Assembly: GCF_014905135.1 (NCBI RefSeq)
Contig: NZ_CP041406.1
Location: 1,922,001 to 1,986,000, forward strand
Source of the DNA: Sulfurimonas paralvinellae
Lineage (GTDB): Bacteria > Campylobacterota > Campylobacteria > Campylobacterales > Sulfurimonadaceae
Reading direction: 5' to 3'
DNA length: 64,000 bases
Part shown: piece by piece, positions 4,569-28,223 of the stretch
How the letters are laid out: each line of letters begins with the position of its first letter
Numbering within the stretch: position 1 is the stretch's first letter
Program-made: the position numbers and the translations under genes
Notes under the pieces: model-generated
The model's input: the letters and a program-made list of their open reading frames with translations, nothing else
Database searches by the model: none
Told to the model about the DNA's origin: nothing

Positions 4569-5208
4569 ACTTATACCCTTCTCCACGAATGTTGACAATA
4601 TGCTCTTTTCCAATATGTTTTCGTAAATTTTTCACAATTGTACGTATGGCATCATCACTCGGCATATCTTCATATTCCCAAAAGTTTTGCAACAGTTCAT
4701 CAGAACTGACAACACGATGACGATTTTTATAAAAGTAGTGCAGACACTCACTCTCTTTATGTGTCAGCTTCACTGTTTCATCAGCAATTTTAAGCATATG
4801 TGTCTTTGTATCAAAAACAATGCCATCATCCAGTTCTATAAGGCTTTCAAGTCCGAAATGCCTTTTTATATTTTCTATTCTCTGTGCCAGCTCTTCAAGA
4901 TCAAACGGTTTTTTTATAAAATCATTTGCACCCGATTCAAAAGCCGATTTGAGATATTTTACATCATGAAAAGCGGTAATAAAAATAGCCGGAGTCTCAT
5001 CACTGAAATCACGAAGCTCACGTAAAAGTGAAATACCGTCTCCATCAGGAACATTGATGTCAAAGATGTAAAGATCAAACTTGTCATCTTCTGCAAGCTG
5101 CAGTGCTTTTTTCATACTGTAGGTCTGTACGACTTCGTACTCGTCTTCTAAAAAATCAACCAAGATATTTGCCAGTGCCGTGTCATCTTCAAGTAATAAT
5201 ATTTTCAT
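4561..5208 (-). CDS. OmpR-family response regulator, candidate copper regulator
   Basis: This 215-residue protein has a receiver domain and a winged-helix DNA-binding domain. The acidic pocket is LLLEDD (Glu7-Asp9), the phosphoacceptor is Asp50 in FDINVPDG, and the conserved lysine is in FIKKPF. The C-terminal half ends in NIRGEGYKFE, the usual end of the OmpR/PhoB winged helix. It partners the kinase translated from the overlapping 3' end. It is cotranscribed with the CopZ-like gene 14 bp upstream, whose promoter carries the cleanest copper-box in the window. OmpR/PhoB proteins bind direct repeats with an 11-bp period, which is the spacing of these boxes. The link to them is inference. Confidence 0.9.
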   Translation of the reverse strand: MKILLLEDDTALANILVDFLEDEYEVVQTYSMKKALQLAEDDKFDLYIFDINVPDGDGISLLRELRDFSDETPAIFITAFHDVKYLKSAFESGANDFIKKPFDLEELAQRIENIKRHFGLESLIELDDGIVFDTKTHMLKIADETVKLTHKESECLHYFYKNRHRVVSSDELLQNFWEYEDMPSDDAIRTIVKNLRKHIGKEHIVNIRGEGYKFE

Positions 5209-5222
5209 GCAGATATTGTACC

Positions 5223-5696
5223 CTAACTTTGCAACTCTTTTATAGCCTTGCTAACATCCCCTAAACAGCATCCGCCGCTTGGATTGAGTATTTCACATGA
5301 ACATCCGGGATCTTCCATTTTCGCTTTTATGTCTTCAAGTGCTGTTGTTTTTCCTGTCGCTTCAAGCTCGGCTTTTATCTTCTCTTTGCTCCACTCAAAA
5401 CAGTAGCATACCGTTGCAGGAGATGCACCCTCTTTACATCCGACAACGACACTCATGTTCTCTTGCGTGAGAATCTCATCACCTCTGAAATAGACAACTT
5501 CACAGCTAGGTGTTTTACAGTAATAAAACCCGTCAAAACAATCAAGCTTTGCTTTTGTCTCTTCTGTGACAAGATGCTCTACCGTTTTTCCAAGAACACC
5601 TTTGGCTTTTTGACCGCACTCAGGACACTCTACTTTGCCTTTTGGCTGTGGAGTGCAGCAGTTATGTTCTTCTTTTACTTTAAATGTGCTAAACAT
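5223..5696 (-). CDS. CopZ-like Fe-S/zinc metallochaperone without HMA domain
   Basis: This cysteine-rich soluble protein of 157 residues has a zinc-ribbon start (NCCTPQ, CPECG, CKTPSC), then CYCFEW, CSCEIL and GGCCLGDV. The pattern resembles the N-terminal domain of Archaeoglobus CopZ, which binds zinc and a [2Fe-2S] cluster and passes copper to the CopA ATPase. The C-terminal HMA copper-binding domain of that CopZ is missing, so this may be a redox or cluster-bearing partner rather than a full chaperone. It is the first gene of the operon with the response regulator and kinase. A strong Shine-Dalgarno (AAAGGAG) precedes the ATG. Function is inferred from family and location. Confidence 0.8.
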   Translation of the reverse strand: MFSTFKVKEEHNCCTPQPKGKVECPECGQKAKGVLGKTVEHLVTEETKAKLDCFDGFYYCKTPSCEVVYFRGDEILTQENMSVVVGCKEGASPATVCYCFEWSKEKIKAELEATGKTTALEDIKAKMEDPGCSCEILNPSGGCCLGDVSKAIKELQS

Positions 5697-5717: not shown

Positions 5718-5748
5718 ATTTTACCCCTTCTTTGTGTAATTTTTGTGT
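5718..5748 (-). promoter_or_regulatory. Promoter of the CopZ-like/regulator/kinase operon (site 2)
   Basis: Read on the minus strand, two perfect ACACAAA boxes (5731-5748) are separated by AATT. Seven bases follow, then TAAAAT (5718-5723). This is the best match to the repeated copper-box, and it would make the two-component system autoregulated. Confidence 0.7.
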
Positions 5749-5774: not shown

Positions 5775-5805
5775 ACACAAATGCAACACACAAAAGTTAT
5801 ATACT
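5775..5805 (+). promoter_or_regulatory. Promoter of the YtkA-like/CopA/CopB operon (site 3)
   Basis: ACACAAA (5775-5781), TGCA and ACACACA (5786-5792) are followed by 7 bp and TATACT (5800-5805). The start codon is at 5836. It faces away from site 2 in the same 139-bp divergent region. Confidence 0.68.
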
Positions 5806-5835: not shown

Positions 5836-6222
5836 ATGAAAACTTTCACAAAAATATTCTTCGCTCTACTTTTAGGAGCAACACTCTCTCACGCAGCGGC
5901 ATTCAGCAAAGATGCAAAATTTAGAACAACGACAGTTCATATCACTGCAGACAAACCTCTAACCACAGGATCAAATACCGTCGTTGTAACTATCAAGAAA
6001 AATGGCAAACTTATAGATGATGCAAAAGTGGCACTCAAAGCCTTTATGCCTGCAATGCCGGGAATGCCTGCTATGAGTTCAAAAGCTAATGCAACAAAGC
6101 TTGAAAACGGAAAATATAAAGCAACCTTGAACTTTGCCATGGGAGGGACATGGCAGCTACATATTTTCATCACACCGAAAAAAGGTAAAAAATCTCGCGT
6201 AAAAACTACGCTGAATTTTTAA
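5836..6222 (+). CDS. Periplasmic YtkA/FixH-like protein, copper-associated
   Basis: This small exported protein of 128 residues has a signal peptide ending near SHAAA. The mature part is a single Ig-like beta domain like YtkA/FixH, with a methionine-rich stretch FMPAMPGMPAMSSKA and the typical end GGTWQLHIFIT. The clustered Met residues suggest Cu(I) binding in the periplasm, though this is not shown. It is the first gene of an operon with the multicopper oxidase (33 bp downstream) and CopB, and it is preceded by copper-box site 3. It could deliver copper to the oxidase or scavenge it. The Shine-Dalgarno AAGGAG precedes the ATG. Confidence 0.75.
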   Translation: MKTFTKIFFALLLGATLSHAAAFSKDAKFRTTTVHITADKPLTTGSNTVVVTIKKNGKLIDDAKVALKAFMPAMPGMPAMSSKANATKLENGKYKATLNFAMGGTWQLHIFITPKKGKKSRVKTTLNF

Positions 6223-6255
6223 AACACATCTACAAAAGCACAAGGAGCGGTTATC

Positions 6256-7956
6256 ATGCAAAACATATCCAGAAGAACATTTGTCAAAGGTGTTATCGCT
6301 GCAGGAATGGCACTCTCGAGTGTTAATTTAAATGCAGATACGCATAGAATAAAAAGACAAAAAACAGAAGAACTCAGTGGCACTGTTTTTCATCTCAGCA
6401 TAGATAAAACTCTGGTAAACATTACAGGGAAGCCTTCGTATGCTACTGCTGTTAATGGAATGTTGCAAGGCCCTACTTTGCGATGGAGAGAAGGCGACAC
6501 GGTTACCTTACATGTAACCAATAATCTTGATGAATCATCTTCAATTCACTGGCACGGAATTATTCTACCATACCAAATGGACGGTGTTCCGGGAATAAGT
6601 TATAATGGAATCGCTCCGGGTGAGACGTTTACATATACCTTTAGAGTACAACAAAGCGGAACGTACTGGTATCACTCTCACTCTGGATTTCAAGAACAGA
6701 CTGGAGTATATGGTGCCATAGTTATTGAACCAAAGGAAAAAGATCCCTTTGCATATGATAGGGAACATGTCGTGGTTTTATCAGATTATTCGGATGAAAA
6801 ACCTGCAAATATCTACAGAAAACTTAAACTCTCGGCTGATTACTACAATTTCAACCAAAGAACTCTCGGAGACTTTTTTTCCCAAGTAAAAGAGAAAGGC
6901 TTTTTAGAAGCTTTTCAAGAGAGAAAAATGTGGAATGAAATGCGTATGTCTGACAGAGACCTCTCAGATGTGACAGGATACACCTATACTTTTTTAATGA
7001 GCGGACAAAACCCCGCAACCCGTTTTCAAGCTCTGTTTCAAAATGGCGAAAAAGTACGACTGCGTATAATAAATGCTGCGGCAATGACCTTTTTTGATCT
7101 GCGCATTCCAGGTTTGAAAATGAAAGTCGTTGCAACTGATGGAAACAATATACAACCCGTCGATGTCGATGAATTTCGCATAGGCGTTGCCGAGACCTAT
7201 GATGTCATCGTAGAACCTGAAGATGATAAGGCCTACGCTATTTTTGCACAAGCAATAGACAGAAGTGGTTATGCCCTTGGAAATCTTTCAACAGATGAAA
7301 ACATTTTGGCAGATGTTCCAAAGCTAGATAAACGTCAGACCCTTACACTTAAAGATATGGGTATGAACAAGAATATGTCAAGCATGAAAAAGATGGATAT
7401 GTCACAAAAAGAAAACATGAGCTCTCTTAAAAAGCCCATTCCTCTTACAAAACTGCCTATGAAATGGGATGTAGGGACAACCATGCGGGCGATGAACCCA
7501 CAATACAGACTTAATGATCCTGGAGTCGGACTACGCAACAACGGTAGAAAAGTGCTCACTTATGCCGATCTGCGTTCTTTACGCTCCACCAAAGATGATA
7601 AATATCCAGACAGAGAGATCATACTGCATCTTACCGGAAATATGGAACGTTATATGTGGTCGATTAACGGCATACCGTATCATGAAGCAGATCCGCTTGA
7701 GTTTCACTATGGAGAGCGTCTGCGTATTACCTACATCAACGATACGATGATGAACCATCCTATGCACTTGCACGGATTATGGAGCGATTTGGAGACCGGA
7801 GATGAAAATCATTTGGTACGAAAACATACCATCATCTCGCAACCGGGTTCAAAGATCAGTTTTCGTGTTACCATAGATGCCAAAGGTGCCTGGGCATATC
7901 ACTGCCATCTGCTCTATCATATGACAGATATGTTTAGAAAAGTCGTGGTGTCATAA
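6256..7956 (+). CDS. copA: CopA/PcoA-type multicopper oxidase
   Basis: This 566-residue periplasmic oxidase of the copper-resistance CopA family probably oxidises Cu(I) to the less harmful Cu(II). It has a Tat signal (SRRTFVKG) and three cupredoxin domains. The copper ligands are visible as SIHWHGI (near residue 98), YWYHSHSG (near 138), HPMHLHGLW (near 501) and HCHLLYHMTDM (near 549), covering the type 1 site and the trinuclear cluster. A Met-rich insert around residues 370-400 (MGMNKNM, MKKMDM) is typical of CopA/CueO and binds extra Cu(I). It lies between the YtkA-like gene and copB, with only 7 bp before copB. The name refers to the oxidase, not to the CopA ATPase. Confidence 0.94.
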   Translation: MQNISRRTFVKGVIAAGMALSSVNLNADTHRIKRQKTEELSGTVFHLSIDKTLVNITGKPSYATAVNGMLQGPTLRWREGDTVTLHVTNNLDESSSIHWHGIILPYQMDGVPGISYNGIAPGETFTYTFRVQQSGTYWYHSHSGFQEQTGVYGAIVIEPKEKDPFAYDREHVVVLSDYSDEKPANIYRKLKLSADYYNFNQRTLGDFFSQVKEKGFLEAFQERKMWNEMRMSDRDLSDVTGYTYTFLMSGQNPATRFQALFQNGEKVRLRIINAAAMTFFDLRIPGLKMKVVATDGNNIQPVDVDEFRIGVAETYDVIVEPEDDKAYAIFAQAIDRSGYALGNLSTDENILADVPKLDKRQTLTLKDMGMNKNMSSMKKMDMSQKENMSSLKKPIPLTKLPMKWDVGTTMRAMNPQYRLNDPGVGLRNNGRKVLTYADLRSLRSTKDDKYPDREIILHLTGNMERYMWSINGIPYHEADPLEFHYGERLRITYINDTMMNHPMHLHGLWSDLETGDENHLVRKHTIISQPGSKISFRVTIDAKGAWAYHCHLLYHMTDMFRKVVVS

Positions 7957-8674: not shown

Positions 8675-8705
8675 ACACATACACCACACAAACTCTTATT
8701 ATACT
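8675..8705 (+). promoter_or_regulatory. Promoter of the DUF302/SHOCT/ATPase operon (site 4)
   Basis: ACACATA (8675-8681), CACC and ACACAAA (8686-8692) are followed by 7 bp and TATACT (8700-8705). The DUF302 start is at 8736. The layout matches the other copper-box promoters. Confidence 0.68.
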
Positions 8706-9344: not shown

Positions 9345-11636
9345 ATGAGTGCAGAAAATCAAGACGAAGAAAATATTTACTGTATAGATGACTCTTGTGA
9401 AATAGGAAATGTTTTTTATACGTGTCCCATGCATCCAGAGATCCATCAAAACCATCCTGGAAACTGTCCAAAGTGTGGCATGGCACTTGAAAAAGAGGTT
9501 GAAGCACTACCGACAGTAAAAACACAATACACCTGCCCCATGCATCCCGAAATCATTCGTGATGAACCGGGGGACTGTCCAAAATGCGGTATGCACCTTG
9601 AACCCATAACCGTACAGGCAGAAGAAAAAAATGAAGAGCTTGATGATATGAGCCGTCGTTTTTGGATAAGTACTGTTTTATCTATTCCTCTTTTTATATT
9701 GGCAATGGTAAATGACGTAACACCGCAATATATTCCATCTTCCTTCTCGGCACAAATGATACAATGGATAGAATTCTTTTTGGCTACTCCTGTTGTTCTT
9801 TGGGGAGGCTGGCCTTTTTACGTTAAAGGATATCAGTCTGTAAAAACATGGAATTTAAATATGTTTACACTTATTTCGATGGGTGTCGGCGCTGCATATA
9901 TTTACAGTATTATTGCTCTATTTTTTCCTGAAATTTTTCCTCCGCTTATGCATACAAAAGAGGGTATAGTGCATGTATATTTTGAAGCAGCGGCCGTTAT
10001 TACTGCACTTGTTCTTTTGGGACAAGTGCTTGAGCTGCAAGCAAGAAGCAAAACAAATACTGCCATAAAAACTCTGCTCAACCTCGCACCAAAACAAGCC
10101 CATAAAATTATAGATGATGCAGGCAACGAAGAGGATATAAGTCTTGAACTTGTTCATGTTAACGATAAACTCAGAGTCAAACCGGGAGAAAAAATTCCCG
10201 TTGATGGAATAGTCATAGAAGGACAAAGCAATATTGATGAGTCAATGATAACAGGAGAACCTCTTCTTATACAAAAAGCAGTGGGTGATACTCTCATCGG
10301 TGCGACCATCAACAAAAACGGAACACTCATCATGAAAGCTACAAAAGTGGGCAGCGACACTATGCTTGCGCAAATTGTACAGATGGTAGCCCAGGCTCAA
10401 CGTTCACGCGCACCGATCCAGCAACTTGCAGATACTGTTTCAGGCTATTTTGTACCGGCAGTTGTTTTCTCTGCTATTCTTGCATTTATAGGCTGGTGGA
10501 TTTGGGGGCCACAGCCGCAACTCGCCTATGCGGTTGTAGCTGCTGTATCCGTACTCATTATCGCCTGTCCCTGTGCTTTGGGACTAGCTACTCCTATTTC
10601 TATTATGGTAGGAACAGGTCGTGCGGCTCTCTCAGGTATCCTTATAAAGGATGCCAAAACGCTTGAAAAAATGGAAAAAGTCGATACTTTGGTCGTTGAC
10701 AAGACAGGAACACTTACACTGGGAAAACCTACAGTAACTGATTTTATTACATCTAAGGGATATGATAATGATGAACTTATTAAATATGCAGCTTCTCTCG
10801 AACGTGCAAGTGAACATCCGCTTGCACAATCTGTCATTGAGTATGCAAAAGAGTCCAATATCGCACTTATTAATGTAGAAAACTTTGAAGCTGTTCCGGG
10901 TAAAGGCGTTATCGCACACATTGACGCTAAAAAAATAATTTTAGGAAGTGAAAAACTTTTAAAAGAACAAGGCATTTCTATTGAAGATGTCAAAGAAAAA
11001 GCAGATACAATGAGAAATGACGCCAAAGGCATTATCTTTATGGCTATTGATAATAACTACTGTGCAATTATTGCTATAGAGGACCCTATAAAAAAGACTT
11101 CAATTGAAGCTGTACAAACATTGACAAACGAAGGTATCACTGTTGTAATGCTCAGCGGAGACAATGAGTTTACAGCTAATGCAGTTGCCAAGAAGCTTGG
11201 TATATCCAAAGTATATGCAAATATATTGCCAGATGGTAAAGCCGATGTTATTAAGGAACTCCAGAGTAGTGGAGCATGTGTAGCAATGGCTGGTGACGGC
11301 ATCAATGATGCGCCGGCACTTGCGCAGGCAGATGTAGGCATTGCTATGGGAACAGGAACGGATATGGCTATAGAGAGTGCTGGTGTAACACTTATAAAAG
11401 GAGATCTGCTCGGAATCGTCAAAGTCCTCAAACTTTCCCGTGCAACGATGAAAAACATCAAACAAAATCTCTTTTTCGCCTTTGTTTACAACAGTGCCGG
11501 TGTACCGATAGCTGCAGGTGTACTGTACCCGTTCTTTGGTATAGTACTTTCCCCTATAATCGCAGCTACGGCTATGAGTTTCAGCTCTGTCTCTGTTATA
11601 GCAAATGCCCTGCGATTAAAAAATACGAAACTCTAA
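9345..11636 (+). CDS. Copper-exporting P1B-type ATPase with two HMBD motifs
   Basis: This 763-residue inner-membrane ATPase exports Cu(I)/Ag(I) from the cytoplasm. The N-terminus has two copies of the short heavy-metal-binding motif YTCPMHPE...CPKCGM in place of the usual HMA domains. The core has the actuator motif TGEP, the transport motif CPC (Cys408, Cys410) in [11 protein letters not shown], the phosphorylation site DKTGT (Asp452), the HP motif (SEHPLA) and the hinge [13 protein letters not shown] with this N-terminus fits the CopA/SilP-like class. It is the third gene of the operon under copper-box site 4. It is a CopA-type ATPase, but the name is left open to avoid confusion with the oxidase. 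Confidence 0.93.
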
Positions 11637-11649
11637 GAAAAGGAATACA

Positions 11650-12024
11650 ATGAAAGTTACATTTGTAGGTATTGGTATGTTGATACTACTGCTCAGCGCT
11701 TGCAGTGATGAAAAGAAATCAGCAAAATCTTCCGCACCTGGCATGAAATGCGGTGCTGGAAAATGTGGTGCCAACATGTTTGACGGTAATGCTGCTTTGA
11801 TTAAAAAAAAGAAAAACATACTTGCACAGATGAGAAAAGATGATCCACGACAGGAGTGTATCAAAAAGGCAAAGAGCACAAAAGAGACCTATGACTGTGT
11901 ACGAGACCCTAAAACAAAGATAATGACACTAAAGTGTGGAAACAACAAATGTGGAGCAGTTAAGAAAGAGCCAAAACCCACTATGAAGTGCGGTACTGGA
12001 AAATGCGGCTCTTCTATGAAATAA
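11650..12024 (+). CDS. KCGxGKCG-repeat lipoprotein, HvfA-like
   Basis: This 124-residue lipoprotein has the lipobox LLSAC at about residues 14-18. The mature part carries KCGAGKCG near its start, KCGNNKCG in the middle and KCGTGKCG near the end, plus two further Cys. The KCG-x-GKCG repeats closely resemble the EGKCG repeats of HvfA/bufferin-type proteins, where MNIO enzymes change the Cys residues into copper-binding heterocycles. No MNIO (DUF692) gene is present in the window, so modification here is only a possibility. It is last in the ATPase operon, 13 bp after the ATPase, so it is probably copper-induced. It is related in motif to the protein at 20130-20402. Confidence 0.75.
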   Translation: MKVTFVGIGMLILLLSACSDEKKSAKSSAPGMKCGAGKCGANMFDGNAALIKKKKNILAQMRKDDPRQECIKKAKSTKETYDCVRDPKTKIMTLKCGNNKCGAVKKEPKPTMKCGTGKCGSSMK

Positions 12025-13474: not shown

Positions 13475-15130
13475 TTAAACTTCAAGAGCCTTTTTGATGA
13501 CATTCGCCACACGAAAAGAGTTAGCATAGATTGTCCAGGTATAAGGAACACTGCCACCTGTCGGCATAAAAGAGGCATCAGTCACATACAAATTTTGCAA
13601 ATCATGCGCTTTACAGTTTTTATCGAGCACCGAAGTTCTGGCATCATTGCCGAAGCGGCACCCGCCTGCAACAAGATTTGGCGGCGGTGAAGAAGAGATG
13701 GAGTAGTCAATCTCTTCGCATCCAAGTTCTTCTAAAATCTTCACCGCTTTTTTTGCTAGATGCTCACCCACTTTCAAATCCTGCGGATGTCCATAGAGGT
13801 TGATAACGCCGACCGGCATACCGTACTTATCTTTTGCTTCCTTATCAATCGATACAAAGCATTTGTCTGTCGGTAACCAGTCATTAAAGACCTCAAAAGT
13901 AAGTACCCGAGATGTTGTCAGCCGTTTTTGCACTTTTTTTGCCAAATCATCACCCCACAAAAGCTCGCCGTTGTCATCATAGACCTCACGCATCACACGC
14001 GGAATAATATTTTGATGTTCAAAAAGAAAGTCTATTGTGCCGCCTTTAGTTTTCTTGCCATCTTTGTCATACTCATACCAATCCTGCAGGCTTCTGTTAA
14101 AAAACACGCCCACCTGCATCAACTCACGCTGCTGCTCCTGCGTGAGCTTCTCAAATACAAAACGACCGCTGCCGCTGCCGCCTGCCGAGAAGATGAGATT
14201 TTTTCCAACCTCGCCGCTTGAATTTGCCAGACCATTAGGGAAAAATTTATTTTTAGAGTTCAGTAGCAGACGGGAGCTCTCAATAGCCTGCGCCGCAACA
14301 ACAAAAATCTTTGCCTCAATAACATGGGGCACACCGAGTCTGGTCTTATAGTATGCTTTTGTCACCCGCTTTGCATCACTCTCGAGTCTGTAGACAAAAG
14401 CGTCAGTAATGACTTTTGCTTTGCATTTTTGCAGCAATGCCGCACGTGAGCTTCCTTTAGCACCGCTTGCACAGCCATAACTGCCGCAGAAGTTGGAGTA
14501 AAAACATCCCTTACGTGAGAGTGCGTCATAAGAGAGTATGGCTCTTGGAGTGGGCATTACATCGTAGCCGAGAGCTTCGCAGGCTTTGTCAAACCATCGT
14601 GTCACACCGTTTGTCTGCAATTCTGGGTAAGGAAAGTTTGCTGTTGAGCGCGGCTCCTGAAAGCTGTGATTAACAACTTTGCCGCTTACACCGACAACCT
14701 GCTCCACTTTGGCATAATAGGGTTCCATATCTTCGTAGCTTATGGGCCAGTCGACGACATTGGATCCTTCTATCTCTCCATAAACGGTCTTGAGCTTAAA
14801 ATCATTGGGCTTGAGTCTGTGAAAATAGCCGCTCATCAAGTTCGATGAGCCGCCGACCATTGAGCCGTTCCAAAAACTCCAGCCATATTCGCGTCCGTCA
14901 TAGCGTTTTACTGAGCCGTCATCCTGCACTTCATTGATGATATGAAACTCATCTTCAAGTTTCGGCGTGAACATATCACGACGGCATACCCCAAGCTCGT
15001 CTTTGTTAAAATCCTGCTCGGTGTAATTTTTTCCTTTTTCCAAAACAACGACATCAAAGCCAGCATTTGAAAGCTCATAAGCGATTGGCCCCGCCCCTGC
15101 GCCACTCCCGATAATACATACATCAACCAT
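13475..15130 (-). CDS. GMC-family flavoprotein oxidoreductase
   Basis: This 551-residue FAD enzyme has the dinucleotide-binding start VDVCIIGSGAGAGPIAYEL and EKGK. It also has a substrate-domain region (NGSMVGGSSNLMSGYFHR) and the GMC_oxred_C end with NLYVTDASFMPTGGSVPYT. This matches the large subunit of membrane alcohol, sugar-acid or gluconate 2-dehydrogenase-type complexes. The next gene upstream encodes a subunit-3-like Tat protein, overlapping by one base (TAATG). No cytochrome subunit is seen nearby. The substrate is unknown. It is the third gene of a set whose only visible promoter is copper-box site 5, an unexpected regulation for this family. Confidence 0.88.
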   Translation of the reverse strand: MVDVCIIGSGAGAGPIAYELSNAGFDVVVLEKGKNYTEQDFNKDELGVCRRDMFTPKLEDEFHIINEVQDDGSVKRYDGREYGWSFWNGSMVGGSSNLMSGYFHRLKPNDFKLKTVYGEIEGSNVVDWPISYEDMEPYYAKVEQVVGVSGKVVNHSFQEPRSTANFPYPELQTNGVTRWFDKACEALGYDVMPTPRAILSYDALSRKGCFYSNFCGSYGCASGAKGSSRAALLQKCKAKVITDAFVYRLESDAKRVTKAYYKTRLGVPHVIEAKIFVVAAQAIESSRLLLNSKNKFFPNGLANSSGEVGKNLIFSAGGSGSGRFVFEKLTQEQQRELMQVGVFFNRSLQDWYEYDKDGKKTKGGTIDFLFEHQNIIPRVMREVYDDNGELLWGDDLAKKVQKRLTTSRVLTFEVFNDWLPTDKCFVSIDKEAKDKYGMPVGVINLYGHPQDLKVGEHLAKKAVKILEELGCEEIDYSISSSPPPNLVAGGCRFGNDARTSVLDKNCKAHDLQNLYVTDASFMPTGGSVPYTWTIYANSFRVANVIKKALEV

Positions 15131-15621
15131 TATAAAAAAGGCTCCTTTGGTCTGGGCACTCCGCCCTCAAATGCCAGCCATTTCCAGCCGGCTTCTTTGT
15201 TATTGCTGCCATAAATGGGGTCACCCAGCATCGCTTCAAACATATAGCTCATCACATCATAGATGAAGCTCTCTCCCCACTCGGTCTTTGCTATGTTTTT
15301 GAGAACATTCTGCCGATCGTTGCGTGAGAGTTTAACATAGGAAGATCTATATATTTTCACAGCCTCTTCGTTGAGCCATTTGACGCCGTTTTTGAGAAAA
15401 TCTTTATCTGATTTGGATATTTTAGAGTGATTGAAAACAAGACTCATATACGAAGCCGTCTCAATACCGAGCTTCTGTGCCTGAGGAAACAGATCTCGAT
15501 GCATAACTCTTAATGTATCAATAGGTGTCGTTATACCAAACAAGCTGCAGCCGTCCATCAAAAAGACAGCACCTGAAAGAAAACCCGCCGCTAAAAATCT
15601 TCTACGAGAAAAGTTCGTCAA
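15130..15621 (-). CDS. Gluconate 2-dehydrogenase subunit 3-like Tat protein
   Basis: This protein of about 163 residues has a Tat signal at the very start (SRRRFLAAGFLSGAVFLMDGC), possibly also a lipobox at its Cys. A small helical domain follows, resembling subunit 3 of gluconate 2-dehydrogenase (DTLRVMHRDLFPQAQ, YEAMLGDPIYG-like end). Such proteins accompany GMC flavoproteins and may guide them to the membrane or periplasm by piggy-back export. I chose the TTG at 15621 because it puts the twin-arginine motif near the N-terminus. A start at 15693 would add 24 unlikely residues and overlap the upstream small gene by 92 bp. Confidence 0.75.
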   Translation of the reverse strand: MTNFSRRRFLAAGFLSGAVFLMDGCSLFGITTPIDTLRVMHRDLFPQAQKLGIETASYMSLVFNHSKISKSDKDFLKNGVKWLNEEAVKIYRSSYVKLSRNDRQNVLKNIAKTEWGESFIYDVMSYMFEAMLGDPIYGSNNKEAGWKWLAFEGGVPRPKEPFL

Positions 15622-15790
15622 AAAAAGAGCCTTTTTTCTTTGGAGTATAGCTTGAAGTGCGTTCATCCACAAAATCAGGATCACCTTTTTCAAACTCTCT
15701 CTGCGAGACTTTTTTTACGTGTTTTGGGGATTTTTTCTCTTTAACAAATCCATTGTCTTTTGAGCGTGTCGCTCCATGAGGAATACACAT
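15602..15790 (-). CDS. Small basic protein of unknown function
   Basis: This 62-residue soluble, lysine-rich protein starts MCIPHGATRSKD and ends KKKGSFFDELFS. I do not recognise a family. A strong Shine-Dalgarno (AAGGAGG) 4 bp before the ATG, and its place as first gene after copper-box site 5, support it as a real gene. Its end overlaps the start of the subunit-3-like gene by 20 bp, suggesting coupled translation. It has one Cys and two His residues, too few to claim metal binding. Confidence 0.6.
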   Translation of the reverse strand: MCIPHGATRSKDNGFVKEKKSPKHVKKVSQREFEKGDPDFVDERTSSYTPKKKGSFFDELFS

Positions 15791-15868: not shown

Positions 15869-17620
15869 TCAATCCACCAGCGCCTCTTTAAAATAACAAT
15901 CCACATCCATGTAGGTTTTACCCGCGGTGTCTTTAAAAATAAGGTTCTCTTTTGTCAGTTTCTTCAGACTATCAAGCCCCATCACAGCCAAAAGTCCTCG
16001 GATTCCAGAGAGCATCTGCGTATGGTACGAGGCGATATTCCTCGCTTTTTTCTCTACCAAAAACGAGGCACGTTTCTTTTTATCCTGTGTTGCCAGACCA
16101 ACCGGACAGGCTCTGCCGTGTGCACCTGAGCATTCACGCGCACGAATACAGCCGGCACTCATCATAAAGGCTCTCGCAATAGCCACATAGTCAGCACCAA
16201 GACCAAAAAGAACAATGGCATCATCGGGAGTAAGCACCTTTTCACTGGCAATAAGCTTTACCCTCTCACGCACACCAAGACGCTCAAGTGCACTTTGTGC
16301 AATAAAGAGCGCCTTTGCAATGGTCATACCGACCGTCATCATCATCTCAAGCGGTGCGGCACCGCTCCCGCCCTCACCGCCATCGATGGTGATAAAATCA
16401 GGGTACGCATCCGAACCCGCATCCACTCGCGTCTTAATAAGCTGCGCATACTCATCAAATGCGGCAGCCGAAGAGATAACTATCTTTACGCCAACGGGTT
16501 TTTGTGAGATCTTTTTCAGTCTCCCCATAAAATCAAAGAGTTCTTCAAGTGTATGTGCATACGGAAACTGATTTGGACTGAAAAGATTTTCATGTGCTTT
16601 GACACCGCGATAGTAGGCGATCTCTTCACTGACTTTCGATGCTAGGAGTTTGCCCCCTGTCTGTTTTGCACCCTGTGCCATCTTGATCTCCGTCATCTTA
16701 CAAAAACGCATCGTTTTTTGGTAGCGCGTCTCACAAAAATCGCCGTTTTCATCACGAACGCCATAAAGACCGCTTCCCATCTGAAAGATAATGTCGGGCA
16801 TATCATCGGGAACATTTTTTGGAAAAACATCCAAAGGAGCATCCCAGTTAACACGATAAAAGAGCATCTCGTCTTTGTCAAAAAGATAACTGTCCGGTGC
16901 TTTTGAATAGACGACCATATGCTTGTAAACCTTTTGTGCAATGGCTCCATTAATGAGAAGTTTGATGATTTTATAGACAGCTTTTGCAAAGAACGTTCCC
17001 TCAAAAGTTTCAAAAAACTTACACTCACGCGTGTATTTGTGCGTGTAAAAAAAGTTGGATGTCAAACTGCCTTCACCGGTGTTGATAGGAAATTTTCCTA
17101 GATATGCCCCTTTGGTAAAAGCGCGTGTTCCCTCAGGTGAGATAGCTCCGTCACTCATGGCTGAGCGTCCAAAAACCGAGCGTGTTGTAAAAGGATTGGC
17201 AGAATGTTCTCCAAAAGTAACAGAAAAATCATCACTGACATCTTCTGTATTTAAAACACAATTGGCATTTTTAAAAGAGAGTCGTGCACCTTTTTGCGGC
17301 TGCCCCGGAGAAAAAGAGGCATAAGCCGATTTTCTCTCGGCCGAGTCATAAACCCATTTTACCTTGTCAAAAGATTCGTAAAATTTTTCATCGCCGAAAT
17401 ACTGCCGCATCGGATCACGCAGAGCATAAAAAAAGTAGCGCAGTCTCCCGATAAGCGGATAGTTTATAAGCAGTTGATTCTCTCTTTGAATATACTTATC
17501 ATAGATATAAATAATTACAGAGACAACAACGAAAAGAACAATGAAGGCTTTCATTAAAAACATCATGATAGGGAAATTGAAATGCCCTATCTTATGTGTA
17601 AATTCTACTAACTCTTCCAT
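15869..17620 (-). CDS. FMN-binding glutamate-synthase-like membrane protein
   Basis: This 583-residue protein has an N-terminal hydrophobic segment (IMMFLMKAFIVLFVVVSVIIYIY) and a C-terminal glutamate-synthase FMN/Fe-S domain. Visible parts are DFITIDGGEGGSGAAPLEMM for FMN binding and GADYVAIARAFMMSAGC with ECSGAHGRACPVGLATQ, giving clustered Cys for an Fe-S centre. The glutaminase domain of GltB is absent, so it belongs to the stand-alone glutamate-synthase-related family, whose reaction is unknown. It begins 5 bp after doxX and should share its copper-box promoter. It is more likely a membrane redox protein than an amino-acid synthase. Confidence 0.87.
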   Translation of the reverse strand: MEELVEFTHKIGHFNFPIMMFLMKAFIVLFVVVSVIIYIYDKYIQRENQLLINYPLIGRLRYFFYALRDPMRQYFGDEKFYESFDKVKWVYDSAERKSAYASFSPGQPQKGARLSFKNANCVLNTEDVSDDFSVTFGEHSANPFTTRSVFGRSAMSDGAISPEGTRAFTKGAYLGKFPINTGEGSLTSNFFYTHKYTRECKFFETFEGTFFAKAVYKIIKLLINGAIAQKVYKHMVVYSKAPDSYLFDKDEMLFYRVNWDAPLDVFPKNVPDDMPDIIFQMGSGLYGVRDENGDFCETRYQKTMRFCKMTEIKMAQGAKQTGGKLLASKVSEEIAYYRGVKAHENLFSPNQFPYAHTLEELFDFMGRLKKISQKPVGVKIVISSAAAFDEYAQLIKTRVDAGSDAYPDFITIDGGEGGSGAAPLEMMMTVGMTIAKALFIAQSALERLGVRERVKLIASEKVLTPDDAIVLFGLGADYVAIARAFMMSAGCIRARECSGAHGRACPVGLATQDKKKRASFLVEKKARNIASYHTQMLSGIRGLLAVMGLDSLKKLTKENLIFKDTAGKTYMDVDCYFKEALVD

Positions 17621-18095: not shown

Positions 18096-18126
18096 ATGAT
18101 ACCCTTCATATGTGTAGTAACTGTGT
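18096..18126 (-). promoter_or_regulatory. doxX promoter (site 6)
   Basis: On the minus strand ACACAGT and ACACATA (18109-18126) are separated by TACT. Seven bases follow, then TATCAT (18096-18101), with the start at 18066. The boxes are degenerate, but the spacing matches the other sites. A divergent TATACT at 18140-18145 may serve the HD-GYP gene. Confidence 0.52.
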
Positions 18127-18164: not shown

Positions 18165-19235
18165 ATGTTCAAAAACCACAGTTGTAACATGTCTAACAAA
18201 GAGTCGTACATCCGCTTTCTAATCGGCGTGTTGCTTGTCGTTTTTGCAGCTTTGGAAAATTCCTTCGTCTTAAGCATATCTGCCGTCATACTGCTCTACA
18301 CAGCATACAAACGATTCTGTTTTATGTATGCACTCTTTCATATCAACGAAAGATTCGGTAAGCAAAACTACTATCTTTCACTATTGCCAAAATACAGATC
18401 TCTCCCCATTTTTATCTTTGATAAAGAAGGAAAAATCCTTTTTGAAAACAGAGCCGCAGAAAAAGAGATAGCAAATGTACATTCCAAAGAAGACCTTCCC
18501 ACAGGAGAAAATGATATTGCCTATTATGAGTATAATGGCATCATCTATCAGATTGAGTACAGGAAAGTTCCAAAAGAAGAACTTCTTCTGGCCTATTTTG
18601 ATGATGTTACAAACATTGTAAAGCTTAACAAAGAGATTGAAGATACCCAAAGAGAAGTTATCTATGCCATGGGAGAGATAGGCGAAACACGCTCAAAAGA
18701 GACAGGCAACCATGTCAAAAGAGTAGCGGAGTATTCAAAGATTTTAGCACTTCTATATGGTTTGAAAAAAGAGGAGGCGGAAAAACTCAAAATGGCTTCT
18801 CCTATGCATGATATAGGAAAAGTCGGTATTCCCGATGCCATTTTAAATGCTCCGAGAAAGCTCACGAAAGAGGAGTTTGAAATAATGAAAACCCACGCTC
18901 AATTGGGTTATGATATGCTCAAACATTCCCATAGACCAATACTCCAAACAGCCGCAATCGTGGCAGGTGAGCATCATGAAAAGTATGACGGCAGCGGATA
19001 TCCAAGAGAACTGCAAGGTGAAGATATCCATATATATGGCCGCATTACCGCTATCGCCGATGTTTTTGATGCTTTAGGAAGTGAGAGAGTATATAAAAAA
19101 GCTTGGGAGTTAGAACGGATTTTGGAACTTTTCAAGCAAGAAAAAGGGAAACATTTTGACCCGAAACTAGTAAACTTGTTTCTTCAAAATTTAGACAAGT
19201 TTTTAGAAATAAGAGAAAGGTTCAAAGACATATGA
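18165..19235 (+). CDS. HD-GYP phosphodiesterase with DUF2892-like membrane domain
   Basis: This 356-residue protein has an N-terminal pair of helices resembling DUF2892/YgaP (SNKESYIRFLIGVLLVVFAA, then YKRFCFMYALFHI). A PAS-like middle follows (PIFIFDKEGKILFENRAAE), then a full HD-GYP domain (MHDIGKVGIPDAIL, HHEKYDGSGYPRE, RITAIADVFDAL), so it should break down cyclic di-GMP. The ATG at 18165 has AGGAG 7 bp upstream and is preferred to a TTG at 18159. The fusion of a DUF2892 hairpin to HD-GYP is uncommon. Cys and Met near the membrane might sense thiols or metal, which is speculation. It overlaps the next gene by ATGA. Confidence 0.85.
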   Translation: MFKNHSCNMSNKESYIRFLIGVLLVVFAALENSFVLSISAVILLYTAYKRFCFMYALFHINERFGKQNYYLSLLPKYRSLPIFIFDKEGKILFENRAAEKEIANVHSKEDLPTGENDIAYYEYNGIIYQIEYRKVPKEELLLAYFDDVTNIVKLNKEIEDTQREVIYAMGEIGETRSKETGNHVKRVAEYSKILALLYGLKKEEAEKLKMASPMHDIGKVGIPDAILNAPRKLTKEEFEIMKTHAQLGYDMLKHSHRPILQTAAIVAGEHHEKYDGSGYPRELQGEDIHIYGRITAIADVFDALGSERVYKKAWELERILELFKQEKGKHFDPKLVNLFLQNLDKFLEIRERFKDI

Positions 19236-20101
19236 AAAAATTTAGCCTTATTTTTCTTATGCTTTCATCTCTTCTTTTTGCCGCAAAAGTAGAGTTTGAA
19301 GTGCTTGGCTCTGGCGGTCCAGAGATAGACGGACGGGCAAGCACCGCTTATCTACTCTGGATAGATAACAAAGCAAGACTCATAATTGATATGGGAAGCG
19401 GTTCTATGCTTCGTTTTGAACAGTCTCATGCAAAAATAGAAGATCTTGAAGCTGTCGTACTCACGCATCTGCACATTGACCACAGTGTTGACCTACCAGC
19501 GTTTGTCAAAGCGGGTTATTTTTCACAAAGAACGAAAAGTCTCGATATTATTGCACCAGACGGTAATGAATTTTTTCCCTCAGCAACTGAATTTCTACAT
19601 GATTTGTTCGGGGAAAATGGTGCGTATAGATACATGAATGACGTCCTCACGCAAGAGAGTGACTCTTTTGAAATCATTCCTGTAAATGTATCAAAAACTA
19701 TGCACCGAGAATATCAAGATTTCAAACTTACAATGGTTCGCGTTCATCACGGCATAGTTCCTGCACTCGCAGTAAAAATCAGTATAGATGGCAAAATAAT
19801 TGTCATCAGCGGCGATACAAACAATGAAAATCACATTCTGGAAGCATTTGCAAAAGATGCTGATTTGTTTGTAGCCCATCACGCCATACCGCAACAGGCG
19901 AAAGGATATGCAACAAACTTGCATATGTCTCCTTCAATTATCGCTCATATTGCTCAAGTTGCAAAAGTGAAAAAGGTAGTTTCAACGCATCGTATGAACA
20001 GAACAATCGGATTTGAACCTGAGAGTTTACAGGAGATAAAAAAGATTTATAAAGGAGAAGTTGTATTTGCAGAAGATAGAATGAAGATAGAGGTAAAGTA
20101 G
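19232..20101 (+). CDS. Exported metallo-beta-lactamase-fold hydrolase
   Basis: This 289-residue protein has a signal peptide (FSLIFLMLSSLLFAAK) and an RNase Z/arylsulfatase-like MBL domain: VLGSGGPEIDGRASTAYLL, the zinc motif THLHIDHSVDLPAF, ISGDTNNEN, and a late His in STHRMNR. It is placed in the periplasm by its signal, so it is a hydrolase of unknown substrate rather than a tRNA nuclease. Translation is coupled to the HD-GYP gene by a 4-bp overlap (ATGA). Confidence 0.85.
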   Translation: MKKFSLIFLMLSSLLFAAKVEFEVLGSGGPEIDGRASTAYLLWIDNKARLIIDMGSGSMLRFEQSHAKIEDLEAVVLTHLHIDHSVDLPAFVKAGYFSQRTKSLDIIAPDGNEFFPSATEFLHDLFGENGAYRYMNDVLTQESDSFEIIPVNVSKTMHREYQDFKLTMVRVHHGIVPALAVKISIDGKIIVISGDTNNENHILEAFAKDADLFVAHHAIPQQAKGYATNLHMSPSIIAHIAQVAKVKKVVSTHRMNRTIGFEPESLQEIKKIYKGEVVFAEDRMKIEVK

Positions 20102-20129: not shown

Positions 20130-20402
20130 TTACATCTTTCCTCCACATTTACCTGTACCGCATTTTGCTTTTTTCTTCTCTTTTTTAGCATCACCACATT
20201 TACCAGCGCCGCACTTGCCTTTTTTCTCAGCTTTCATTTTAGCACCGCATTTACCGCTGCCATCAGCTTTTTTAGCCGGTTTTTCCATTGAAGAACCACA
20301 CTTACCTGCACCGCATTTCATTGCCGCACTTGCAGAAGTCGCTCCAAGAGCCATGAACAGAGCTGCACCTAAAAGTGTCGCTGTTATGTTTAATTTTTTC
20401 AT
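20130..20402 (-). CDS. Secreted KCGxGKCG-repeat peptide (HvfA/bufferin-like)
   Basis: This 90-residue protein has a signal peptide of about 26 residues (ends SASA). The mature part is almost only Lys, Gly, Ala and Cys, with seven Cys, all in KCG units: KCGAGKCG, GKCGAKM, KCGAGKCG and KCGTGKCGGKM. HvfA/bufferin precursors have the same layout with EGKCG repeats. There, MNIO (DUF692) enzymes with a DUF2063 partner convert the Cys residues into copper-binding groups. Neither partner is visible in the window. Copper-box site 7 precedes it and a doxX gene with its own copper-box is close. The likely role is periplasmic copper binding or storage. Inference rests on motif and promoter. Confidence 0.8.
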   Translation of the reverse strand: MKKLNITATLLGAALFMALGATSASAAMKCGAGKCGSSMEKPAKKADGSGKCGAKMKAEKKGKCGAGKCGDAKKEKKKAKCGTGKCGGKM

Positions 20403-20480
20403 TTCTCATCCTTTGATTTTGAGTTGAACAAGTGTAACATAAAATAAAAAATATTTATGTGCACCGGTTACATTGCAACA

Positions 20481-20511
20481 ATTCTACAAAAATAGTGTGT
20501 AGTGTTTGTGT
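20481..20511 (-). promoter_or_regulatory. KCG-peptide promoter (site 7)
   Basis: On the minus strand ACACAAA and ACACACT (20494-20511) are separated by CACT. Seven bases follow, then TAGAAT (20481-20486), with the start at 20402. A plus-strand TATAAT at 20519-20524 lies back to back with it and could serve the next gene. Confidence 0.65.
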
Positions 20512-25621: not shown

Positions 25622-26398
25622 CTATTTATTTTTAAAATTATACATCATTATAGAAGCGGCAATGGCAACATTGAAACTTTTAACACCCTCTTGCATCTCA
25701 ATAGAGACGACTGCATCACATAAATCCAGAATATCCTTCTCAATTCCAAAACCTTCATGTCCCATAATAAGCGCCCATTTTCCTGCAGGCCTTACATCCG
25801 AAAGTAGCTGTGCATCTTCTGTGACCTCTGCTGCATAGATTGTATAACCCAAACTTTTTAAAGTTTTAATACTCTCTTTGATATCTTCATAGACATGAAT
25901 TTTCAGCATTGAAGCATACCCCATGGATACTCGAAGTGCACGTCTGTTAAATGGATGCGGTGATGTTTTTCCAAGCATCAAAGAGTTCACGCCAAGAGCT
26001 GCCATACTTCTCGAAACTGCACCAACATTTTCGCTTGAAGTGATGTTATCAAGCAGTAAGATTGTCTCATCGAGCTCACACAGAGAAGAATCGTCGGGAC
26101 GCTTTGCATGCATCATACAGTTGTGATGTATCTTATGCCCGACCACTTTACTTATCTCCGCTTTACTTGCCTCATAGACAAAAGGGATCTTGCGTGAGGC
26201 TATGAGTTCGTGATGCTCTGCAAAATACTCCTTCGTTGCCAAAATGCTGTAGATTTCTATATCACTCTGTTCTAAAATAAGGTTCACGACCTTTGGAGAG
26301 TCTGCAATGAAACTGCCGTCGCTGAGTATTCCTTTATCACGCTGTGCATGATAGACCTGCAGCCGCTTATCTTCTATATTTTCTATTTTTATAACCAT
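25622..26398 (-). CDS. TrmH/SpoU-family RNA 2'-O-methyltransferase
   Basis: This SPOUT methyltransferase of about 258 residues has a substrate-binding N-terminal domain and a C-terminal knot. It contains LDNITSSENVGAVSRSM (motif 1, with the Asn-Val-Gly-Ala pattern), ALIMGHEGFG (motif 2) and VVSIEMQEGVKSFNVAIAAS (motif 3). It transfers a methyl group from AdoMet to a ribose 2'-OH of tRNA or rRNA. The exact target cannot be told from sequence. The ATG at 26398 is preferred to 26404 because the -10 box ends only 6 bp before it, leaving almost no leader. Confidence 0.88.
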   Translation of the reverse strand: MVIKIENIEDKRLQVYHAQRDKGILSDGSFIADSPKVVNLILEQSDIEIYSILATKEYFAEHHELIASRKIPFVYEASKAEISKVVGHKIHHNCMMHAKRPDDSSLCELDETILLLDNITSSENVGAVSRSMAALGVNSLMLGKTSPHPFNRRALRVSMGYASMLKIHVYEDIKESIKTLKSLGYTIYAAEVTEDAQLLSDVRPAGKWALIMGHEGFGIEKDILDLCDAVVSIEMQEGVKSFNVAIAASIMMYNFKNK

Positions 26399-26404
26399 AA
26401 ACAT

Positions 26405-26416
26405 ATTATATATAAT
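26405..26416. promoter_or_regulatory. Back-to-back -10 boxes of a divergent promoter
   Basis: ATTATATATAAT is a 12-bp palindrome formed by a TATAAT on each strand. The expected transcript starts (near 26398 and 26423) fall at or within about 12 bases of the start codons of both divergent genes, so both leaders are absent or very short. Confidence 0.5.
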
Positions 26417-26434
26417 TATGCTAAAATGAGTACC

Positions 26435-27088
26435 ATGAATATACTGCTAATGGAAGATGATCCGGTTCTATCGGATATTTTACTTGATTTTCTGCGTGAG
26501 GACTACAGTGTCGATTATGCCTTTAATGCTGAAGAGGTCTATAACCTGTTGGAGAAAAAAAGCTACGACCTTTTTATCTTTGACATCAATGTCACCGGAC
26601 AAAACGGACTTGATCTCCTTCAAGAACTGCGCTCATTTTCCGACAGCACCCCTGCCATCTTCATAACAGCCTACAATGACACAAAACATCTTCAAAAAGC
26701 TTTCGATGCCGGTGCACATGACTACATAAAAAAACCTTTTGAACTTGAAGAGTTGAAAGTCCGCATAGAGAGCACAAAACGCCTTTTTCACATTGAAAGC
26801 ACCCAGCTGGAGAGTATCAGCCAAGACATAAGCTTCAACCCACAGACAAAAGAGATACAGACGCCTACTAAAACCATCTCCCTTGGATCCAAAGACGCTC
26901 TGCTATTAAGTTATTTTTTAAAGAACAAAAACAGGCTCATCTCGAATGAAGAGCTCACCCAGAATATCTGGGACTTTGACTCCATACCGAGTGATGCAAC
27001 ACTGCGCTCACACATTAGAACACTGCGTGAGATCATCGGCAAAGAGAAGATAAAAACTATTCGCGGTGAAGGGTATCTCTATGAATAA
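26435..27088 (+). CDS. OmpR-family response regulator, paralogue of 4561-5208
   Basis: This 217-residue regulator has a receiver (LLMEDD; phosphoacceptor Asp50 in FDINVTGQNG; Lys in YIKKPF) and a winged helix ending TIRGEGYLYE. It is clearly paralogous to the copper-linked regulator through most of its length. It differs in the recognition region (ATLRSHIRTLREIIG against AIRTIVKNLRKHIG), so it probably reads another DNA site. I start it at 26435, which aligns residue for residue with the paralogue; 26426 is also possible. No copper-box precedes it. Its target genes are unknown. Confidence 0.88.
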   Translation: MNILLMEDDPVLSDILLDFLREDYSVDYAFNAEEVYNLLEKKSYDLFIFDINVTGQNGLDLLQELRSFSDSTPAIFITAYNDTKHLQKAFDAGAHDYIKKPFELEELKVRIESTKRLFHIESTQLESISQDISFNPQTKEIQTPTKTISLGSKDALLLSYFLKNKNRLISNEELTQNIWDFDSIPSDATLRSHIRTLREIIGKEKIKTIRGEGYLYE

Positions 27089-28223
27089 GATAACGAAAAA
27101 ATCCTTTTACTCTTTTTTGAGTCTCTATCTTGTGAGTTCGTTCATTTTCCTAACGCTTGCCGCTTACTGGTTCTACAGCTCCCAGGTTGCCATGGAAATG
27201 AATGCCAACTTTTACAAGATGAACCATATAGCTGACAAAGTAAGCGCTGAGATAATCCGCGCACAGATGCAGCATAAATCTTTTACATTGAAACCTCTCA
27301 AAGGAGCTGCAGTAGCTCTTTTTGACAAAAATAGAAAACTGCTTGACGGCATGATTGTCCAACCGATTGATTTTGCAAAAGATTATTATATGGAAAATAG
27401 TATCTTTACGCTTGTCTCACAAAGAACAGCGGGACATCTCGGTGTTCAATACGTTGTTGTTCAAAGTAATGAATGTACCAAAAACGTACAAAAGATAAAA
27501 AATAAGATCGCTTACGCCGTTATAATCACAGCCATACTCATCATACTCATAGCCATCTTTCTCTCCTACATCTTTTTAAAACCGATCAAAGAAAAAATGG
27601 AAGAGATAGAAAACTTTGTAAAGGACACCACCCATGAACTCAACACCCCTATCACAGCACTCATGATGAGCACCTCACGCATACGGAGCAAAAAAGAGTA
27701 TGATGAGAAGATAGTCAAGAACATCTCCATCAGTACAAAACAGCTCTATGATATCTATGCATCATTGAGTTTTTTGAGTTTTGACGCCCAAAGTGAAGCA
27801 CCGCAAAAACTTAGCTTTGATGTAGTCATCAAAGAAGACATCGCCTATTTTGAGGAGCTTTTAGAAAAGAAGAACATTAAAGTGACAGCAGACCTTGCCA
27901 AATGTGAGATCACGATCACTCCCACAAAAGCCAAAATGCTCATAAACAATCTGCTCAGTAATGCCATAAAATATTCAAAACCAAACACAACAATCACCAT
28001 CACGACAACAGCAGACACTTTTACAATCAAAGACGAGGGGATAGGCATAGAAAAAGAGAAGCTCGATGTCATCTTTCAGCGTTTTGTGCGAGCCAATTCC
28101 TATGCCGGTGGATTTGGCGTCGGTCTCAATATCGTCGATGCCATTGCAAAAGAGTATGGCTACACCATCAACATAGTTTCACAAAAGAACAAAGGTACTG
28201 AAATCACTCTTCGTTTTCACTAG
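27081..28223 (+). CDS. Sensor histidine kinase, paralogue of 3444-4568
   Basis: This 380-residue membrane kinase has TM1 (YLVSSFIFLTLAAYWFY), a short periplasmic domain, TM2 (IITAILIILIAIFLSYIF), HisKA with THELNTPITAL (His185), an N-box (NLLSNAIKYS), G1 (KDEGIGIEKEK) and G2 (GGFGVGLNIVDAI). The start ATG overlaps the regulator stop as ATGAATAA. It is a paralogue of the copper-linked kinase, with the same layout and no HAMP domain. The signal is unknown. Its 3' end overlaps the convergent EAL-HDOD gene by 20 bp. Confidence 0.88.
   Translation: MNKITKKSFYSFLSLYLVSSFIFLTLAAYWFYSSQVAMEMNANFYKMNHIADKVSAEIIRAQMQHKSFTLKPLKGAAVALFDKNRKLLDGMIVQPIDFAKDYYMENSIFTLVSQRTAGHLGVQYVVVQSNECTKNVQKIKNKIAYAVIITAILIILIAIFLSYIFLKPIKEKMEEIENFVKDTTHELNTPITALMMSTSRIRSKKEYDEKIVKNISISTKQLYDIYASLSFLSFDAQSEAPQKLSFDVVIKEDIAYFEELLEKKNIKVTADLAKCEITITPTKAKMLINNLLSNAIKYSKPNTTITITTTADTFTIKDEGIGIEKEKLDVIFQRFVRANSYAGGFGVGLNIVDAIAKEYGYTINIVSQKNKGTEITLRFH

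Follow-up and report, generated by a model that had tools for sequence, protein, structure and literature searches.

A KCG-repeat peptide and an HvfX-family protein with copper-type promoters in a Sulfurimonas genome without MNIO or DUF2063 matches

The KCG peptide encoded in the window, by which is meant the whole 64,000-nucleotide stretch of the Sulfurimonas paralvinellae genome analysed here, is by its sequence related to the HvfA/oxazolin precursors, which are normally modified by a dedicated iron enzyme, the MNIO. The lineage of this sulfur-oxidising bacterium keeps the peptide and HvfX, mostly with no MNIO or DUF2063 genes. With moderate confidence, the peptide can be regarded as a copper-induced, Sec-exported, Cys/Lys-rich and unmodified thiolate buffer of Cu(I) in the periplasm that works with HvfX. 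Copper peptides with thiooxazoles form a new class. Nature separates the two roles in a lineage where peptide and HvfX are mostly retained and MNIO is missing, and this opens to test both the unmodified action of KCG peptides and the role of HvfX where there is nothing to mature.

The KCG peptide and its genomic setting

The first-pass annotation had described a mature part with seven cysteines, all in KCG units, behind a signal peptide. This description was confirmed at the open reading frame concerned (Table 1), the Sec-type signal peptide being recognised by eye from its lysine-rich start, its hydrophobic stretch and its ASA end. The peptide scores 40.6 bits (E 1.5e-10) against the NCBIfam model NF050137 (KCGExKCG_twice, 'HvfA family'), which has a cut-off of 19.5, and 13.4 bits against the HvfA equivalog NF050188, below the cut-off of 95 bits. 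The Pfam scan gave no family at E up to 1, and hence no DUF2282. To call the peptide HvfA/bufferin-like is supported by sequence as regards its HvfA-like form, while 'bufferin' is too wide a label because the peptide has no Pfam match at this threshold and stays below the equivalog cut-off. Glycine follows all seven cysteines, as expected of an MNIO substrate. The AlphaFold model is of low confidence (mean pLDDT 46), with residues 6-19 as the sole helix, and the peptide is predicted to be disordered.

The window encodes a second KCG protein, a lipoprotein, whose gene starts 13 bp past the copper ATPase gene on the same strand. It scores 25.1 bits against NF050188 (cut-off 95). KCG lipoproteins of one type adjoin copA- or cusA-like genes in six of seven cases.

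A doxX gene 2 kb from the peptide gene, under the same type of box, had also been noted, and both points were verified. The distance is 2064 bp, a box promoter is present, and the product passes the HvfX model NF050144 with 126.4 bits over a cut-off of 80 bits. It is 94% identical to the protein of a Sulfurimonas MAG and 90% to that of S. indica, in which the KCG and hvfX genes are direct neighbours (contig L133). The AlphaFold model of HvfX is confident and all-helical (pLDDT 89). The fold was considered as a clue to mechanism and rejected; the best Foldseek match had an E of 0.91, and no inference is drawn from VIA-align because its Z scores (best 9.8 for NACHO/TMEM35A, 6.7 for VKOR) are under the level meaningful for helical bundles. 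The KCG gene and hvfX are separated by an HD-GYP gene and a metallo-beta-lactamase-fold gene, as is also the case in locus L063; the metallo-beta-lactamase-fold gene is convergent with the KCG gene across a gap of 28 bp.

Table 1. Features of the window, in window positions, with the basis of each assignment.
Feature	Position	Strand	Basis and remarks
Copper-type promoter, CusA-like RND pump gene 305-3430	247-276	+	Contig 1922247-1922276; CusA by eye
Histidine kinase paired with regulator 4561-5208	3444-4613	-	HisKA, HATPase_c (Pfam)
OmpR-type response regulator, candidate box reader	4561-5208	-	Response_reg, Trans_reg_C (Pfam)
Copper-type promoter, copZ-like gene 5223-5696	5718-5747	-	Contig 1927718-1927747; NF047645, PF18423
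Copper-type promoter, YtkA-like/multicopper oxidase genes 5836-7956	5776-5805	+	Contig 1927776-1927805; YtkA by Pfam, oxidase by eye
Copper-type promoter, DUF302...copA...KCG-lipoprotein run	8676-8705	+	Contig 1930676-1930705; DUF302 by Pfam
CopA-type copper P-type ATPase	9345-11636	+	ORF list, family named by eye
KCG lipoprotein, 124 aa, six KCG	11650-12024	+	NF050137, 31.5 bits
GMC oxidoreductase	13475-15130	-	PF00732/PF05199; recurrent HvfX neighbour
Gluconate_2-dh3 small subunit	15130-15693	-	PF13618; recurrent HvfX neighbour
Glutamate-synthase-like (GltS-like) protein	15869-17620	-	PF01645; 5 bp after hvfX, recurrent neighbour
HvfX-family DoxX membrane protein, 146 aa	17626-18066	-	NF050144, 126.4 bits; PF07681 DoxX
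Copper-type promoter of hvfX	18096-18125	-	Box + 9 nt + TATCAT; contig 1940096-1940125
Metallo-beta-lactamase-fold protein, signal-like start	19232-20101	+	PF00753/PF12706
KCG peptide, 90 aa	20130-20402	-	Signal peptide, then 7 Cys, each in KCG
Copper-type promoter of KCG peptide	20481-20510	-	Box + 9 nt + TAGAAT; contig 1942481-1942510

The absence of MNIO and DUF2063 genes, first noted for the window, holds and extends to the whole genome, which comprises 2.08 Mb in two contigs with completeness scored 100%. At E up to 0.001, the genome-wide searches returned no match to MNIO (PF05114) and none to DUF2063 (PF09836, the PME-type 1 partner), the controls for both being positive, that for the latter in Caulobacter. 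HvfX is without a match to either partner gene in the genome, and the suggestion that the modifying genes might be located elsewhere is not supported. The same PF05114 search recovered MNIO in 12 of the 151 genomes of the window's family, with best E values from 3e-96 to 4e-88, so the sensitivity of the search is unlikely to explain the absence here. The automatic names 'oxazolone/thioamide-modified RiPP metallophore' and 'RiPP maturation protein' may be misleading for these genomes.

Several described systems resemble this arrangement in part. The HvfA/oxazolin system of Haemophilus influenzae (hvfABCX; PMC13419390) and the captophorins with EGKCG repeats, such as fontiphorin and gonophorin (PMC13097082), resemble it in the KCG repeats behind a Sec signal (recognised by eye in the window peptide), in a DoxX-family HvfX gene nearby and in the link to copper. 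Unlike both, the window genome has no match to MNIO (HvfB) or to the DUF2063 partner (HvfC), and its peptide has xGKCG in place of EGKCG. The peptide also differs from HvfA in falling below the equivalog model, and from hvfABCX in that separate copper-box promoters are found in the window and not one ABCX operon. The bufferins Buf1 (DUF2282) and Buf2 (6/12 Cys) are likewise exported and Cys-rich, are connected with excess copper and have DoxX in their clusters, according to PMC12452194; the window peptide is distinguished from them by the lack of DUF2282, the KCG repeats and the missing MNIO.

Antoine et al. (2025) counted Buf_EGKCG precursors without MNIO in 67 of the 2583 genomes of their census (PMC12452194, Table 3); they describe such enzyme-less precursors as rare and suggest that these either need no modification or have ceased to be functional (PMC12452194). 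They are like the present case in being precursor genes with no MNIO in the same genome. In contrast to their rarity in the census, the enzyme-less state is the usual one in the window's family, together with HvfX, a copper-type promoter and conserved cysteines. The window lineage presents the census exception in dense form, and there is evidence for function in it. Thiolates hold the metal in bacterial metallothioneins and periplasmic copper-storage proteins, which are small or Cys-rich; the window peptide is unlike them in having neither a Pfam match nor a predicted fold.

Distribution among relatives, gene order and the residue after cysteine

Of the 151 family genomes, 48 carry the KCG repeat and 68 an HvfX that scores over the cut-off. 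The repeat occurs in 9 of the 12 MNIO genomes and in 39 of the 139 others (Fisher p 0.002); MNIO does accompany the KCG repeat, yet most repeat carriers are without it. The 139 genomes without MNIO comprise 31 with both repeat and HvfX, 8 with the repeat only, 27 with HvfX only and 73 with neither, an association (Fisher p 2e-8) that is not corrected for kinship and that leaves out the HvfX of one genome (G066), whose two genes are on different contigs. The repeat carriers include one-contig genomes of 99-100% completeness. The repeat model misses some peptides, since 10 of 13 further HvfX or MNIO loci had a KCG peptide, 8 of them in genomes missed by the model. None of the 14 named genomes provided a positive control for the NF050137 search; five of the 14 gave weak HvfX-like matches, none over the cut-off. 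A draw of 249 genomes over the phylum contained MNIO in 12 (10 over the cut-off), the repeat in 14 and HvfX over the cut-off in 29, and repeat carriers with MNIO were five of eight outside the window's family and one of six inside. Among openly licensed full texts, no literature was found on MNIO in Campylobacterota or on oxazolin in Sulfurimonas.

The gene order was compared between loci. All seven fetched MNIO loci are ordered KCG-MNIO-DUF2063, with HvfX next in five. In the 34 loci without MNIO, including that of the window, HvfX adjoins the KCG gene in 16 and is elsewhere farther away or absent, and a GltS-like gene and a GMC pair are often found downstream. HvfX is the commonest neighbour of the KCG gene over 41 clustered loci (26 loci, 17 within 1.5 kb); a GGDEF/FIST-type cluster was present in 20 (6 within 1.5 kb), and MNIO with DUF2063 in 7. 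The two members of the GMC pair each occur in 14 loci, with 7 and 6 of these, respectively, within 1.5 kb. On these counts the idea of a conserved substitute enzyme beside the KCG gene was set aside, apart from the GMC pair, which is retained as an alternative. A further set consisted of 80 named HvfX loci, the best among 348 relatives, and covered Sulfurimonas, Sulfurovum, other Campylobacterota names and one entry titled Candidatus Gracilibacteria, the MNIO status being known within the fragment, up to about 6 kb per side. These best 80 of 348 loci carry a Lys-Cys peptide within 1.2 kb in 51 cases, MNIO and DUF2063 in 2, the GMC small subunit in 42 and a GltS-like gene in 35, counts in which the number of independent rows is overstated because some named loci repeat other genomes and near relatives are many. 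Nine of the 80 named loci encode a member of the metallo-beta-lactamase-fold family, and in the MNIO-bearing loci L093 and L224 such a gene comes immediately behind HvfX or DUF2063; the member in the window is possibly a real partner.

On an HvfX tree of 117 rows, made from a short alignment by a quick method, the MNIO label requires 10 changes, at least five of them forced by well-supported branches, as compared to a mean of 16 for shuffled labels. One Sulfurimonas MAG locus (L193) has an MNIO cluster that includes a short precursor of its own, along with a boxed KCG peptide of the window type and a boxed hvfX 2.7 kb away. The related loci L190 and L195 have the boxed peptide and HvfX with no MNIO in the fragment.

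The residue following cysteine was compared for peptides chosen by three thresholds (4 or more Cys, 3 or more KC, and 40% or more of the Cys in KC), and owing to this selection the KC fraction itself is not evidence. Identical peptides were counted once, the 'lipoprotein' call was a rough regex, and one rubredoxin-like ORF was removed by hand from this count and kept in the promoter count. The window peptide is not among the 103 peptides because its hvfX lies too far off, and the MNIO-bearing locus L214 has no row. Glycine follows 138 of 148 cysteines in the 22 peptides with MNIO and 348 of 506 in the 81 without (Mann-Whitney p 0.0009), the other residues in the latter being mostly Gln, Ser, Asp and Asn. 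With kinship taken into account (median p of 1 over 4 independent pairs), the relaxation was not significant and was for this reason dropped as proof of non-modification; fewer Cys-Gly without MNIO would be consistent with loss of the enzyme's demands. For one MNIO, FonBC, PMC13097082 describes that in the EGKCG frame Ala is the only accepted substitute for the Gly behind Cys, that a charged residue at this place prevents processing, and also that one Cys-Tyr motif was modified once; the raw counts agree with most of these limits. Near HvfX, six Sulfurovum loci (L171, L177, L180, L186, L197 and L199) encode Lys-Cys peptides of both kinds, one lipoprotein and one secreted, in which many KC are followed by Q, S, D or N, not G. 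A protein resembling by eye a ferredoxin-thioredoxin reductase/rhodanese fusion was seen near Sulfurovum peptides (L171:4232-4972, L177:7141-7836 and L185:1380-2120).

These neighbourhoods bear on whether the peptide is still modified, by a non-MNIO enzyme or by an MNIO too divergent for PF05114, which is judged unlikely. The obvious candidate would be the GMC/Gluconate_2-dh3 pair, acting after export. In the best 80 of 348 HvfX loci, Gluconate_2-dh3 is found at the 42 mentioned above and either it or a GltS-like gene at 65, in a gene order that varies across Sulfurimonas, Sulfurovum and Sulfurospirillum; the signal peptide and the KCG motif are retained in Sulfurimonas. The GMC pair is within 6 kb of HvfX in 21 of the 57 family genomes having both, but in the other 36 it is not (some perhaps cut by contig ends), and the synteny may be largely inherited. 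Moreover, the Gly after Cys has been lost in many Sulfurovum peptides, and we know of no precedent for a GMC enzyme acting on Cys peptides.

Copper-type promoters and candidate regulators

The sequence upstream of the KCG peptide gene is TACACAAACACTACACA, and the box consensus taken from KCG promoters is ACACAAANNCTACACA. Genome-wide, the consensus has three perfect sites: one precedes the KCG peptide gene, another is 46 nt upstream of a TolC/CusC-like gene, and the third falls within a peptidase ORF; at up to two mismatches there are 40 sites versus 33 for the reversed control. The KCG peptide promoter shows no mismatch to TACACAAANACTACACA, and none of 100 shuffles was equally good. In the copper promoters, the box is followed by a spacer of exactly 9 nt and a TANNNT hexamer (-10), a layout first seen by eye. 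The promoter patterns were written after inspection of the window and 40 other loci. Since the composite pattern was derived from copper promoters, to find them with it is no surprise, and the test is how little else is found.

The composite of box, 9 nt and -10 has nine sites in the 2.08-Mb genome and none when reversed. Seven of them precede cusC, cusA, copZ, ytkA/multicopper oxidase, DUF302-copA(-KCG lipoprotein), hvfX and the KCG peptide gene; the box on which copper control of the peptide had been proposed is on this count real, the control itself being predicted from sequence. The eighth is within the peptidase ORF and the ninth is upstream of a small exported-type ORF. The last site, at contig position 873676 (L243:1501-1950), is just before this 131-aa ORF, a possible extra member of the copper regulon.

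Over 16 genomes, the composite gave 26 sites against 1 reversed, with none in 7 of the 16, including one genome (G079) that carries both genes. Among 86 distinct KC peptides of secreted type whose loci have no MNIO, 22 are preceded by it and none by the reversed pattern. When the pattern was written, eight of these 22 were already known and 14 were not; nearly all of the 22 are Sulfurimonas-type. It was also found before 1 of 20 peptides with MNIO and before 15 of 124 hvfX rows (reversed 0), at least 3 of these rows being repeats of one genome. The 29 lipoproteins encoded at loci without MNIO gave no such promoter and 1 reversed site.

The box takes the place where a -35 would be, which suits an OmpR-type activator, and a candidate reader with its paired kinase is given in Table 1. 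The window has two similar OmpR-type regulator/kinase pairs, at 3444-5208 and at 26348-28223. A second element, approximately TGTAAY-N4-RTCACAT (a Crp/FNR-type palindrome), was seen by eye between box and gene, at about 20455-20472 in the window (imperfect) and in the KCG promoters of L061, L063, L068 and L072. Crp-like genes occur near the KCG gene in L063, L065, L075 and L093.

Selection on the peptides and their probable function

The median pN/pS over 15 disjoint peptide pairs (secreted and lipoprotein) from loci without MNIO is 0.16, from crude counts with the signal part excluded. The 104 Cys columns of these pairs had 28 synonymous changes and 2 replacements, and the 260 Lys columns had 53 and 27, respectively. 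By these counts, the peptides of loci without MNIO look alive and not decaying. The secreted peptide of the window, which is outside the 15 pairs, gave pN/pS of 0.27, 0.58 and 0.65 versus the three peptides passing the identity filter, and in each comparison one Cys column was replaced, perhaps as an effect of repeat alignment. KCG peptides are of low complexity, with a very variable number of repeats.

As the genome shows no match to the modifying enzyme, the peptide probably handles copper with plain cysteines, and the earlier suggestion that unmodified cysteines bind copper directly appears to be the best remaining reading. Copper stress would jointly induce the peptide, hvfX, cus, copZ, copA and the oxidase. 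The seven unmodified thiols of the exported peptide would hold Cu(I) in a metallothionein-like manner, and its predicted disorder would suit cluster-type binding, while the KCG lipoprotein would hold Cu(I) in the same way at a membrane. The peptide would act alongside the Cus efflux pump, the multicopper oxidase and the membrane protein HvfX. Against this reading, periplasmic free thiols could be oxidised to disulfides, the window peptide is under weaker constraint and keeps a Gly after each Cys, and the box pattern is missing in 7 of the 16 relatives, G079 among them. A KCG-type cluster of Microbulbifer is reported as undetected in proteomes, even with copper added (PMC12538549), which by analogy is a caution against presuming induction.

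The DoxX partner of thiooxazole copper peptides, HvfX, is termed 'yet uncharacterized' in PMC13419390 and is considered a possible additional factor in copper binding in PMC13097082. It is tentatively proposed, as a notion that may well fail, that peptide and HvfX form a self-sufficient copper module for which modification by MNIO/DUF2063 is optional, and that HvfX, hitherto named a 'maturation' protein of modified peptides, works on unmodified Lys-Cys peptides in the Sulfurimonas and Sulfurovum relatives, perhaps with the periplasmic GMC flavoenzyme pair.

The peptide may instead hand copper on to CusCBA or the oxidase, serving them as a chaperone or sink in the periplasm and not as a store, although the chance of this is small. 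The promoter type common to cusC, cusA and the oxidase would fit such a role, as would the lipoprotein form adjoining copA- or cusA-like genes in six of seven cases; the low complexity and the very variable repeat number suit bulk binding over a docking surface.

Still less probable is a role of the peptide-HvfX pair mainly in thiol, sulfur or nitrosative redox chemistry, with copper control being secondary. The DoxX family has thiol and sulfur links that would agree with it. Likewise, PMC12452194 cites a homologue of DoxX that gives protection from oxidative or sulfur stress. The Crp/FNR-like palindrome seen by eye in several KCG promoters points in the same direction, and the copper pattern is absent from 64 of the 86 secreted-type KC peptides of loci without MNIO; both genes here, however, carry the copper-efflux promoter type, and the second KCG protein follows copA.

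As compared to the unmodified Cu(I) buffer favoured here, it is very improbable that the peptide is a leftover precursor decaying after loss of its enzyme: the HvfX tree does imply 10 or more shifts in MNIO presence (five or more of them forced by well-supported branches), enzyme-less precursors are perhaps non-functional according to the published census (PMC12452194) and the window peptide is less constrained than the 15 pairs, but the median pN/pS of those pairs is low, the cysteines and the promoter are retained in relatives, and the peptide is present in one-contig genomes of 99-100% completeness.
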